Assembly (NCBI RefSeq): GCF_004795835.1
Contig: NZ_CP039249.1
Location: 926,501 to 990,500 of the forward strand
Reading direction: 5' to 3'
Source of the DNA: Sphingomonas sp. PAMC26645
Lineage (GTDB): Bacteria > Pseudomonadota > Alphaproteobacteria > Sphingomonadales > Sphingomonadaceae
DNA: 64,000 bases
The notes below the pieces were generated by a model that had not been told where the DNA came from, ran no database searches, and was given only the letters and a program-made list of their open reading frames with translations. The position numbers were made by a program, and so were the translations under genes. This document shows, piece after piece, positions 52,612 through 60,284 of this stretch (position 1 is the stretch's first letter; the number at the start of each line of letters is the position of its first letter).

Positions 52612-52626
52612 CTATAGTTTTGATGA
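52612..52626 (-). promoter_or_regulatory. Shared 15-bp motif, site D (upstream of dps)
   Basis: Read towards dps the site is TCATCAAAACTATAG. It shares AAACTATA with three other sites (54245-54259, 54376-54390, 60270-60284), each in the same orientation relative to the gene behind it. It is the least conserved at its left end. Confidence 0.45.
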
Positions 52627-52686
52627 CTACGAGCAAAGCGGATCCGACGGCCGACTAACCAAGTCTGGGCTGCACGTCCGCAATCA

Positions 52687-53433
52687 CTAGCCGCCGTAGC
52701 GCTCGGTCTTGATAATGGAGGGGGGCAGGCCGGCCAGTAAGGCGCCCTCGGTCGCGATGTTGACGAAACCGTTGGATCCGCAGACGAAGACTTGGCTGGG
52801 CTTTCGGTGAAGTCGCGCCACGACCTCCTGGACCATCGCGCCGTCGATCCGTCGCCCGAAGTCCGACGGGCGGACCGGGGCTTCTCGGGTGATCGTCAGC
52901 GCCAGGACGAATGCCGCGTCGCCCATTTCGGTCGCATGCAGCTCTTCCGAGAAGAGAACGTCCGCCTCGGTGCGTGCGGATAGCAACAGCGCCGTCGGGA
53001 CGGTCGTGGATAGCGTATGGCGGTGCCGGATCATCGCCATCAGCGGCACGAGGCCGGAGCCCGCTCCGATCAACAACACCGCATCCACGGCGGGATCCGG
53101 CCACAGGAAATGACCCCCAAGCGGACCACGAAGCTCGATATCGTCGCCGATCGCCGCCACGTCGTGGAAGAACGACGAGACTTCACCGTCCGGCAGTCGC
53201 TCGATCGCGAGTTCAAGGATCGGGGACGACGTCGTCGCGGACGCGATCGAGTAGCTTCGCATCGCGCTGTAGCCGTCGGGCGCGGTCAGCCGGACATCGA
53301 CATGCTGCCCTGCGATGTGCGCGAACGGCTTGCTCAATCGCAGGAAGAAGCTCTTGATGCTCGGTGTCTGCTGGACGATGTCCTCGATCACGCACGACTG
53401 CCATGCCACGGTTTGCGCGCCGCCCTCAGTCAT
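52687..53433 (-). CDS. FAD/NAD(P)-binding ferredoxin reductase-like protein
   Basis: 248 residues; its ATG overlaps the stop of the upstream molybdoenzyme by 8 bases. FNR-type fold: MRSYSIASATTSSP (FAD-binding R-x-Y-S), GPLGGHFLW, LIGAGSGLVPLMAMIR (NAD(P) site) and VFVCGSNGFVNIATEGAL. There is no [2Fe-2S] domain. The overlap suggests it passes electrons between NAD(P)H and the partner sulfite-oxidase-like enzyme. Confidence 0.87.
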   Translation of the reverse strand: MTEGGAQTVAWQSCVIEDIVQQTPSIKSFFLRLSKPFAHIAGQHVDVRLTAPDGYSAMRSYSIASATTSSPILELAIERLPDGEVSSFFHDVAAIGDDIELRGPLGGHFLWPDPAVDAVLLIGAGSGLVPLMAMIRHRHTLSTTVPTALLLSARTEADVLFSEELHATEMGDAAFVLALTITREAPVRPSDFGRRIDGAMVQEVVARLHRKPSQVFVCGSNGFVNIATEGALLAGLPPSIIKTERYGG

Positions 53434-54031
53434 TGGTGTATCGCTGTTCGCGCCATGGATCGCCGTAGATATGGTAGCCGTGACCTTCCCAGAATCCGGG
53501 TTCGTCGCGCGTCGTGAACTGCAGTGCGTTCACCCATTTGGCGGACTTCCAGAAGTAGAGGTGCGGGACCAGGAGGCGCGCGGGCCCGCCGTGATCGCGC
53601 GGAAGCGGCTCGCCCGCATAGGTGAGGGCGACCATCGCCTTGCCTGACAGCAGATCCGCCAAAGGTACGTTCGTAGAATACTTATCGTAGCAGTGCGCCA
53701 ACACGAAATCGGTGGGCGGGTCGAGCCCGGCATCGGCAAGTATGTCTTCGATGAGCACGCCCTCCCAGGCGGTGTCGAGCTTGGACCAGGAGGTGACGCA
53801 GTGAATGTCCTTGGTCACCTTCGTCTTCGGCAGGGCGTTGAACTCGCTCCAGTTCCAGACTTTGACGGGCTTCGGACCGATCTTGACCGTGAATTTCCAA
53901 TCGGAAGGCTCTACGTGCGGCGTAGGGCCAGCGGACAGGACGGGAAAATCTTCCACGAGATGCTGACCTGGCGGAACTCGACCGGAGTCATCGCCGCTTG
54001 AACCGCGGCCGGAGAATCCTCTGGTGACCAT
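53426..54031 (-). CDS. Sulfite oxidase-like molybdopterin oxidoreductase
   Basis: 201 residues with the Mo-pterin binding fold of the sulfite oxidase family: KTKVTKDIHCVTSWSKLD, where the Cys is the expected molybdenum ligand, then VLAHCYDKYSTNVPL, PRDHGGPARLLVPHLYFWKS and a C-terminal GYHIYGDPWREQRY. There is no Tat signal, so it is cytoplasmic, unlike MsrP. Members of this short type occur next to a flavin reductase, as here. The substrate may be an S- or N-oxide, in line with the Msr genes nearby (inference). Confidence 0.87.
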   Translation of the reverse strand: MVTRGFSGRGSSGDDSGRVPPGQHLVEDFPVLSAGPTPHVEPSDWKFTVKIGPKPVKVWNWSEFNALPKTKVTKDIHCVTSWSKLDTAWEGVLIEDILADAGLDPPTDFVLAHCYDKYSTNVPLADLLSGKAMVALTYAGEPLPRDHGGPARLLVPHLYFWKSAKWVNALQFTTRDEPGFWEGHGYHIYGDPWREQRYTND

Positions 54032-54244
54032 GATGAATCCCTTGGGTTGGCTGATGGAACGGATCGGGCTTGAGTTCAGAAGCTGATGCTACATCCTTGT
54101 GGCTGCAACTGTCGAACGAGTTGTTTGACTCGAAAATAAGCAGGGTGGCCTGATGGAACGGCCATGATCTTGACCTGCTATGACGCCCGATGATTGCAAA
54201 TGGGGTTTAGCGCCCACCCAGTCTGACTATCCAATACCCTGTCG

Positions 54245-54259
54245 CTATAGTTTTAATAC
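54245..54259 (-). promoter_or_regulatory. Shared 15-bp motif, site C
   Basis: Read towards the minus-strand molybdoenzyme gene it is GTATTAAAACTATAG, with the common AAACTATA core and a G-T-A-T left half. It lies 214 bases before the start codon. Confidence 0.5.
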
Positions 54260-54375
54260 GTTTCGGTAGTTTTGTCATGTGCGTGGCTAGGCGCGGGTCT
54301 TACGATCGATCGGTCGGTTCTGAATTATTCGGCCGATACGCATCGAAGTTAATCTGGTACGTGCCAAGTCGTTCC

Positions 54376-59106: not shown

Positions 59107-59174
59107 AATCTGCGATCCTGGTGCTGCGGTCATGGAGGATTGCGGACCAGACCGGCGCTGAACGGTGGTGGCGT

Positions 59175-59714
59175 CTATTCCGCGGCGATCCCGGTCGCGG
59201 GCTGCGTATCGTCAGCCGTCTGGCGCTTCGGAAGCACCCAGCCGGGACGCACGAAGTGGCAGGTGTAGCCGTTCGGCCGCGTCTCCAGATAATCCTGGTG
59301 ATCCGGCTCGGCCTCCCAGAAATCGCCGGCCGGCACGACCTCGGTCACGACCTTGCCATTCCACAGCCCGGAGGCATCGACGTCGGCGATCGTGTCCTCG
59401 GCAACGCGCTTCTGCGCGTCGTCGACGTAATAGATGCCCGACCGGTAGGAGAGCCCCATGTCGTTGCCCTGGCGGTTCTTGGTGGTGGGATCGTGGATCT
59501 GGAAGAAGAATTCGAGGATCGCCCGGTAGCTCGTCACCGCCGGGTCGAAGGCGATCTCGATCCCCTCGGCATGCGTGCCGTGGTTGCGATAGGTGGCGTT
59601 CGGAATATCCCCGCCGGTGTAGCCGACGCGGGTCGAGATGATGCCGGGCCGCTTGCGGATCAGATCCTGCATGCCCCAGAAGCATCCGCCTGCGAGAATG
59701 GCGCGCTCGTGCAT
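59175..59714 (-). CDS. msrA: Peptide methionine-S-sulfoxide reductase MsrA
   Basis: 179 residues from ATG 59714 with GAGGAGGC upstream. It starts HERAILAGGCFWGMQDLIRK; the catalytic Cys is in GCFWG. THAEGIEIAFDP, FFFQIHDPTTKNRQGNDMG and YRSGIYYVDD are standard. The resolving C-terminal cysteines of some MsrA are replaced by a short AE-rich tail, so it may depend on another reductant. The start is 1 base after the end of msrB, so the two are co-translated. Confidence 0.95.
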   Translation of the reverse strand: MHERAILAGGCFWGMQDLIRKRPGIISTRVGYTGGDIPNATYRNHGTHAEGIEIAFDPAVTSYRAILEFFFQIHDPTTKNRQGNDMGLSYRSGIYYVDDAQKRVAEDTIADVDASGLWNGKVVTEVVPAGDFWEAEPDHQDYLETRPNGYTCHFVRPGWVLPKRQTADDTQPATGIAAE

Positions 59715-59715
59715 A

Positions 59716-60159
59716 TTAAGCCTCCTCTGCCTGATCGAGATATTCGCCGTAGCCTTCGCTCTCCATCTCATCGCGCGGAATGAAGCGAAGCGACGCCGAG
59801 TTGATGCAGTAGCGCAGGCCACCGCGGTCGGCGGGACCGTCCGGGAACACGTGGCCGAGATGGCTGTCGGCGTGTACCGACCTGACCTCGGTCCGGACCG
59901 TCCCGTGCGTGGTGTCACGGACCTTGTTCACGTTTGCCGGGACGATCGGCTTGGTGAAGCTCGGCCAGCCGGAGCCCGACTCGTATTTGTCGGTCGAGGC
60001 GAACAGCGGCTCGCCCGATACGACGTCGACATAGATGCCAGGTTCCTTGTTGCCGTCATACTCTCCGGTGAAGGGCCGCTCGGTACCCGAGTGCTGCGTC
60101 ACCCGGCGTTGCTCCGGGGTCAGTCGATCGACTGCGTCCTGCGATCTTTCAAACTTCAT
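59716..60159 (-). CDS. msrB: Peptide methionine-R-sulfoxide reductase MsrB
   Basis: 147 residues from ATG 60159 (a TTG at 60171 would add four residues). SelR motifs: LTPEQRRVTQHSGTERPFTG, SGSGWPSFTKPI, DSHLGHVFPDGP and the catalytic Cys in LRYCINSASLRF. Both zinc CxxC pairs are absent: the usual Y-x-C-x-x-C-G position reads IYVDVVSGEPLF, so it is the metal-free subclass. Together with MsrA it repairs both stereoisomers of oxidised methionine. Motif site A lies 111 bases upstream. Confidence 0.94.
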   Translation of the reverse strand: MKFERSQDAVDRLTPEQRRVTQHSGTERPFTGEYDGNKEPGIYVDVVSGEPLFASTDKYESGSGWPSFTKPIVPANVNKVRDTTHGTVRTEVRSVHADSHLGHVFPDGPADRGGLRYCINSASLRFIPRDEMESEGYGEYLDQAEEA

Positions 60160-60269
60160 GATATCACTCAATACTTTTCAGGAGGAACGAAGGATCTACG
60201 TTCAGAAAATAGTATTCGTCATCATGCAGTGTATCGCAGTACCTCCTGGAATTATCCAATACGCCGGAC

Positions 60270-60284
60270 GTATAGTTTCCATAC
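60270..60284 (-). promoter_or_regulatory. Shared 15-bp motif, site A (msrBA promoter region)
   Basis: Read towards msrB it is GTATGGAAACTATAC, a partial dyad GTAT-N7-ATAC with the T-N11-A spacing of LysR-type operators. It lies in the 149-base gap between the LysR gene and msrB. Site B at 54376 is 14/15 identical. Confidence 0.55.

Follow-up and report, generated by a model that had tools for sequence, protein, structure and literature searches.

Do four transcription units that share a short upstream motif form a single regulon, and which protein reads the motif? The question is raised by a cluster of redox-stress genes in a 64,000-nucleotide stretch of the genome of Sphingomonas sp. PAMC26645, an alphaproteobacterium of the order Sphingomonadales (RefSeq assembly GCF_004795835.1, contig NZ_CP039249.1, positions 926,501 to 990,500 of the forward strand). 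We refer to this whole stretch as “the window” and count coordinates from its first base. A first-pass annotation, made from the letters alone, noticed the core motif AAACTATA before dps, a sulfite-oxidase-like molybdoenzyme gene, a DUF336 gene and msrB, and proposed a regulon governed by a neighboring gene for a LysR-type regulator. Judged by sequence comparison, the cluster is a genuine, conserved and mobile LysR-linked regulon of a known kind, and its four sites probably act as operators through which the LysR protein encoded at 60309–61184 governs a single regulon.

The four candidate sites lie where they had been placed, at 52612–52626, 54245–54259, 54376–54390 and 60270–60284, each oriented toward the gene behind it, at distances of about 107–121 bases from three of the start codons and about 214 bases from that of the molybdoenzyme gene. 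The core occurs four times in the 64-kb window, compared with a mean of 0.06 over 100 shuffles. The whole genome (4.28 Mb, a single contig) has 11 copies, four of them within these 8 kb, and 15 copies of the reversed control. The 15-mer STATKRAAACTATAS is matched exactly at three places genome-wide, every one in this cluster; its excess is gone once three mismatches are allowed, meaning that the signal is local and confined to the cluster. While the four copies of the core stand, the claim that it is strictly invariant does not, because a close relative (L043) reads AGAACTATA at the dps site.

A second conserved block adds to this motif. Downstream of each core, at constant spacing, lies a TATTGGATA-like block. 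We refer to core and second block together as the “composite”; the full element consists of a TAT-N7-ATA box, nine bases, (T/C)ATTGG and then a −10-like hexamer. With at most three mismatches, the composite occurs three times in the genome, always in the cluster, and the reversed control occurs nowhere; the dps copy falls short of this limit. The composite at this threshold is found nowhere else in the genome, and no regulon extending beyond the cluster was found in this organism. Four of the seven other copies of the core were inspected (L001 and L006–L008), and none of the four has a second block at the right place.

The geometry of the element is fixed across hosts. From the window and 34 loci (35 sequences in all), we collected 59 distinct 32-mers with at most 4 mismatches in 22 positions; requiring a difference of at least 8 bases in 74 left 51 of them. 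The likeness of these 51 non-redundant sites stems partly from that selection, for which a leave-out matrix and reversed scans serve as controls. In the first box, the left TAT is matched, base by base, in 46, 51 and 51 of the 51 sites, and the right ATA in 51, 51 and 39. The corresponding counts are 51, 51, 48 and 48 for AAAC, and 51, 51, 51, 49 and 51 for ATTGG. Eighteen bases past TTGGAn lies nATAnT, with A in 41, T in 40, A in 30 and T in 37 sites. LysR-family regulators typically use a recognition site plus an activation site that overlaps the −35 element. A dyad box with a second block overlapping −35 is therefore the arrangement that a LysR protein would be expected to use, and the T-N11-A spacing from which a LysR-type operator had been proposed recurs in the consensus TAT-N7-ATA box of the 51 sites.

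The leave-out matrix was built from 43 sites of other loci, with the window, L043 and L044 excluded. Its top four places in the 64 kb are the four window sites, at 55.4, 50.0, 44.7 and 37.2 bits; the next-best place in the window scores −2.7 bits, a gap of about 40 bits, and the best in the reversed window −8.4 bits. The highest score belongs to the candidate operator box before msrB, GTATGGAAACTATAC (60270–60284, minus strand). Its second block, TATTGGATAA (60252–60261, minus strand), contains a −35-like TTGGAT at 60254–60259, with a −10-like hexamer at 60230–60235, in the spacing common to the 51 sites. The candidate box before the HbpS-like (DUF336) gene, CTATGGAAACTATAC (54376–54390, plus strand; 50.0 bits), is followed by TATTTGAATT (54399–54408, plus strand), a block placed by sequence and matrix that has a weakened −35-like TTTGAA, with a −10-like CATAGT at 54425–54430. 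The candidate before dps, TCATCAAAACTATAG (52612–52626, minus strand; 44.7 bits, 18 of 22 consensus positions), has the matrix-placed second block CATTGGACAT (52594–52603, minus strand), with a −35-like TTGGAC and CATCCT at the −10 place. The lowest-scoring candidate is the box before the molybdoenzyme gene, GTATTAAAACTATAG (54245–54259, minus strand; 37.2 bits), whose second block, TATTGGATAG (54227–54236, minus strand; −35-like TTGGAT), was found by composite pattern and matrix.

Across genomes, the site accompanies lysR and msrB. In the window, lysR (60309–61184, minus strand) adjoins msrBA, as had been remarked, and a site lies between lysR and msrB. The same arrangement is found in 17 of the 18 named loci L043–L060, a comparison that supports the proposed LysR-linked regulon. 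The scan of named genomes behind these figures covers 20 loci, L062 (a 24% match) and L061 (truncated LysR) being left out of the 18. The exception is L056, in which the LysR match spans residues 8–266 and no msrB was matched beside LysR; in L054, the site lies some 570 bases behind lysR. Conservation in relatives had been set as a check on the proposal, and at least one site with at most one mismatch is present in 20 of 20 LysR-bearing genomes or records, compared with 0 of 20 for the reversed control. Plasmids give the same picture: in all eight loci fetched from 221 plasmid records (L063–L065 and L134–L138), the site lies behind lysR, with LysR identities of 42–86% and hosts from Aeromonas, Leclercia, Sinorhizobium meliloti, Phaeobacter, Phyllobacterium and Paracoccus. 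On one of these plasmids, pLEC-5e18, an annotated ISEc33 sits between msrB and the site behind lysR (L065, 5314–6345).

Genus samples for the LysR, composite and molybdoenzyme counts were matched by size (151) and shared handles. LysR was found at E 1e-60 in 4 of 151 genomes and the strict composite in six, namely all four LysR-positive genomes plus G034 and G079 (reversed control, 0 of 151). A molybdoenzyme match at E 1e-50 is present in 36 genomes and is 84–100% identical in five, namely G034 and the four with LysR. In the remaining 31, whose molybdoenzyme relative is 46–52% identical, no strict site occurs anywhere, and nothing above 15 of 22 was seen in the 25 of them that were scanned locally. 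In the order sample, a LysR protein search scoring six candidates per genome found matches in 6 of 396 genomes, the five besides PAMC26645 itself being homologs of 36–42% identity. Among these five, the one beside msrB (L169) has the site, and the other four, with no msrB within 1.5 kb, have no site there. The site pattern occurs in 5 of 396 genomes and its reversed control in 2 of 396; the matches in G170 and G209 have no island genes within 1.5 kb and are likely chance. A one-to-one pairing of LysR and site is not evident from the order sample.

The proposed regulator has 291 amino acids. An N-terminal HTH_1 and a C-terminal LysR_substrate domain both score above the gathering threshold, and the protein has a full-length LysR fold. 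None of the best 25 of 46 NCBIfam matches exceeds its own cut-off, the top one being CynR (80 versus 277). Identity to CbnR, CynR and BenM is about 14–21%, and these three LysR-family members are metabolite-type regulators. All 26 of the 26 distinct orthologs compared have Cys144, Cys198 and Cys238; such invariant cysteines in the sensing domain suggest thiol sensing, i.e., that LysR may be a thiol-based redox sensor. A broader set, with four site-less homologs among its members, has the same cysteines in 20 of 20. The presumed recognition helix reads LTRAI in site-bearing rows; the exception, L135, has LTKSI, and its site is a variant, AAACAATA. The four site-less homologs all differ from LTRAI, small as these numbers are.

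By sequence, the nearest PDB match of the window LysR is OxyR (profile E 3e-27), likewise of the LysR fold. OxyR, the hydrogen peroxide regulator of the LysR family, has dps among its antioxidant target genes in enteric bacteria. We reject membership in OxyR because the cysteine register is off and the NCBIfam OxyR model scores 68.4 bits against a cut-off of 329. In HMMER alignments, position 199 is Glu (in one case Asn), and the place of Cys208 is a gap, with no Cys. The polarity of the box also differs: it reads CTAT-N7-ATAG here, whereas OxyR sites read ATAG-N7-CTAT.

Behind the sites of other islands, in alphaproteobacterial and gammaproteobacterial hosts, the same gene classes recur: msrB, the molybdoenzyme, an HbpS unit in which a zinc alcohol dehydrogenase gene often comes first, a unit of redoxin-like, DM13 and major facilitator superfamily (MFS) genes, and dps. 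In the dps class, about 90 bases separate the end of the composite from the start codon. Additional sites or half sites precede other genes in L045 (3515), L053 (2470), L123 (3682 and 17665) and L128 (12742).

In the window, the long operon behind the msrB site lies on the minus strand. It begins with msrB (59716–60162, ATG at 60159; Pfam SelR, NCBIfam MsrB above cut-off) and msrA (59175–59714; Pfam PMSR). Pfam and NCBIfam searches identify the next two products as a glutathione transferase (58402–59106), nearest to glutathione-dependent disulfide oxidoreductases at scores below cut-off, and a CorA-family transporter (57437–58405). Two family-less proteins follow, one of 190 amino acids (56868–57440) that neither Pfam nor NCBIfam matches and one of 149 amino acids (56357–56806), whose earlier label of GreA-like finds no support in Pfam (E 0.01) or NCBIfam (E 0.001). 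The two are kept together in many islands, and in Paracoccus (L138) their unit has a site of its own, which ties them to the regulon. The protein at 55894–56295 is a Rid-family member, as the name RidA had implied, but it scores below the NCBIfam cut-off; a DUF2218 protein (55520–55810, by domain match) follows. The molybdoenzyme gene (53426–54031, minus strand; Oxidored_molyb, NCBIfam relatives below cut-off) is paired with one for a ferredoxin/flavin-reductase-like partner (52687–53433, minus strand; domain match). On the plus strand, the HbpS-like protein (54512–54943; domain match) precedes a redoxin-like protein that is below the Pfam gathering score (54986–55456). The Dps-like ferritin (52011–52505, minus strand) matches Pfam Ferritin, with NCBIfam Dps models below cut-off.

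The islands appear to be mobile. LysR at E 1e-60 is encoded in 221 of 72,556 plasmid records, some matches being in two pieces, so that not all are intact; identity is 80–90% in 158 records and 60–80% in 59. By genus, the records include Citrobacter (62), Sinorhizobium (49), Klebsiella (38), Enterobacter (27) and Aeromonas (9), and among the matches listed, the 80–90% identity group comes from Enterobacterales and Aeromonas. The lysR-msrB gap sequence of plasmid pFBAOT6 matches 175 plasmid records, 157 of them over at least 80% of the gap length. In E. coli, pieces of the island are found in 17 of 5,426 complete genomes, two of them over 80% of the query, and all on plasmids. Loci from Sphingopyxis, Aliihoeflea, Aurantimonas, Sphingobium and Mesorhizobium (L048–L052 and L060) share island layout, sites, spacing and identity values, which suggests recent transfer. 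Plasmid sources among the matches listed include wastewater, sink and hospital samples, in a database whose sampling is biased.

Several findings weigh against the reading of the four sites as operators of this LysR. At three or fewer mismatches, STATKRAAACTATAS has 75 matches in the genome and 184 in the reversed control, i.e., no enrichment, as would be expected if the sites were a chance likeness of short AT-rich words. That origin is almost certainly wrong and is rejected on the shuffle count (4 versus 0.06), the reversed control of the composite, the leave-out matrix with its gap of about 40 bits, and the conservation in relatives. The element is also unevenly kept. The dps site of L043 and the HbpS-side site of L045–L047 and L061 have decayed to 17 of 22, the molybdoenzyme-dps unit of L085 has no site (best 12 of 22), and L064, L123 and L189 have a dps-type site with no dps match behind it. 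No composite was found by matrix scan before lysR itself in the window. The three cysteines are present in homologs whose genes are without the site, and HMMER alignments put C198 one residue before the position of OxyR Cys199. In addition, intact LysR is missing in four of the nine site-bearing genomes of the genus and order samples (with G386 included and G170 and G209 set aside); the remaining five are G000, G070, G118, G127 and G386, the last with a LysR of 42% identity. In G034, LysR is reduced to residues 227–291, both gst and HbpS are cut short, and no corA match was seen. Three sites and most of the target genes are present in G501, with no LysR ortholog; G328 has four sites elsewhere, with neither site nor lysR found at msrB; and G079 has the dps site alone, near a contig end. 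Such sites may reflect losses of LysR or the use of another regulator. Sites beside a truncated or missing LysR are likewise kept in islands at L061 (10001–10195), L191 (7612–9353) and L190 (4778–5221).

Use of another regulator would make the regulon real but its reader different, e.g., a second LysR or a MarR protein of the kind that many islands carry. These four genomes speak for it, as do the 33%-identical LysR paralog (293 amino acids) encoded about 0.8 kb before the msrB site of G501 and the MarR genes and 33–36%-identical LysR paralog of several islands. We nevertheless consider it improbable. Rhizobium (L057 and L058) and S. meliloti (L134 and L137) have small lysR-msrBA modules, in which no other island regulator was matched, three of these four being without annotation; a TetR gene lies 1.7 kb before lysR in L137. 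The cut genes and missing corA match of G034 indicate a decaying island, which fits relic sites, and the symmetry of the box is of the LysR type. A conserved promoter that is no operator, e.g., for an alternative sigma factor, would explain the −35/−10-like pair at fixed spacing within the element, and GGAAAC resembles some extracytoplasmic function (ECF) −35 elements. This is highly improbable, because the TAT-N7-ATA dyad stands upstream of a separate −35/−10-like pair, the whole accompanies a LysR gene, and a sigma-factor gene is annotated in none of the six annotated plasmid stretches. The islands look mobile and alike, so one promoter could have been copied recently before several genes, without current function. 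That history is extremely improbable: spacer and flanks vary freely among the 51 sites while the element stays, and the element persists where LysR is 42–63% identical.

With LysR as the preferred reader, a mechanism can be outlined. Two LysR dimers would bind the TAT-N7-ATA box and, roughly two turns of the helix further downstream, the TATTGGATA block that overlaps −35. An oxidant would modify LysR by thiol chemistry, probably at Cys198, Cys144 or Cys238, and the modified tetramer would shift and recruit RNA polymerase. The predicted effect is activation rather than repression, switching on methionine sulfoxide repair by MsrBA and the rest of the long msrB operon, the molybdoenzyme pair, the HbpS/redoxin unit and Dps. 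As to which oxidant this would be, sulfur oxidation stress is suggested by MsrA, MsrB, the relative of glutathione-type disulfide oxidoreductases, the redoxin and Dps. Reactive chlorine is hinted at by a DUF417 protein, a relative of RclC, that is encoded in several islands, with no match in the window; but the plasmid protein scores 89.1 bits against an RclC cut-off of 275, and identity with RclC is rejected. Hypochlorite, the signal suggested at first, is therefore a guess.

Another layer may lie above lysR. Two TATGC-N5-GCATA palindromes precede lysR in the window (61254–61268 and 61294–61308), exactly 40 bp apart. Both are kept in L043–L045, L048–L053, L082, L124 and L126, a single one is present in L046, L047, L054, L055, L063, L064 and L085, and there is none in L056–L059. 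In L048, L063 and L082, the palindrome also precedes marR or DUF417 genes. A MarR protein acting above LysR may use these palindromes as operators. A MarR-family protein is encoded at 61403–61954 (minus strand); its tail, CRLCCHEGCTNC, is rich in cysteine and might serve in metal binding or redox sensing. Tentatively, we suggest a broader and more doubtful picture: a new three-cysteine class of LysR sensors would govern a mobile regulon against reactive chlorine or oxidants of similar strength, and the whole switch (regulator, operators and repair genes) would have passed between alphaproteobacteria and plasmids of enterobacteria, perhaps under selection in places where oxidizing disinfectants are in use, with lysR possibly gated by MarR in a two-tier arrangement.

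Known systems offer partial parallels. NemR, one point of comparison, is a TetR-family protein. HypT, RclR and NemR are named as hypochlorous acid (HOCl)-specific regulators described by 2020, RclR being of the AraC family (excerpt of PMC7464077). HypT/YjiE is a hypochlorite regulator of the LysR type tied to methionine sulfoxide reductases and switched by Met oxidation (same excerpt). Our LysR alignment, from which HypT is absent, has no invariant Met, with the start Met nearly invariant, and the HypT targets named in the excerpt differ from those of the cluster. LsrB of rhizobia is a second redox-responsive LysR, and deletion of lsrB in Agrobacterium lowers msrA and gst genes (excerpt of PMC11975290). 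Genes for msr, LysR proteins of 296–298 amino acids and GST are listed near chlorite dismutase (excerpt of PMC9751292). The regulon had been called previously undescribed, and we found no description of regulon or operator among the papers listed from PubMed Central, a search outside which most subscription journals fall.

If the proposal is true, a thiol-type LysR sensor, distinct from HypT, would be added beside OxyR and LsrB. The operator would be defined, so that the targets of the switch could be read from sequence. Well over 150 plasmid records would carry an unstudied oxidant-response switch, and it would become testable whether oxidizing conditions in wastewater and plumbing favor these plasmids.

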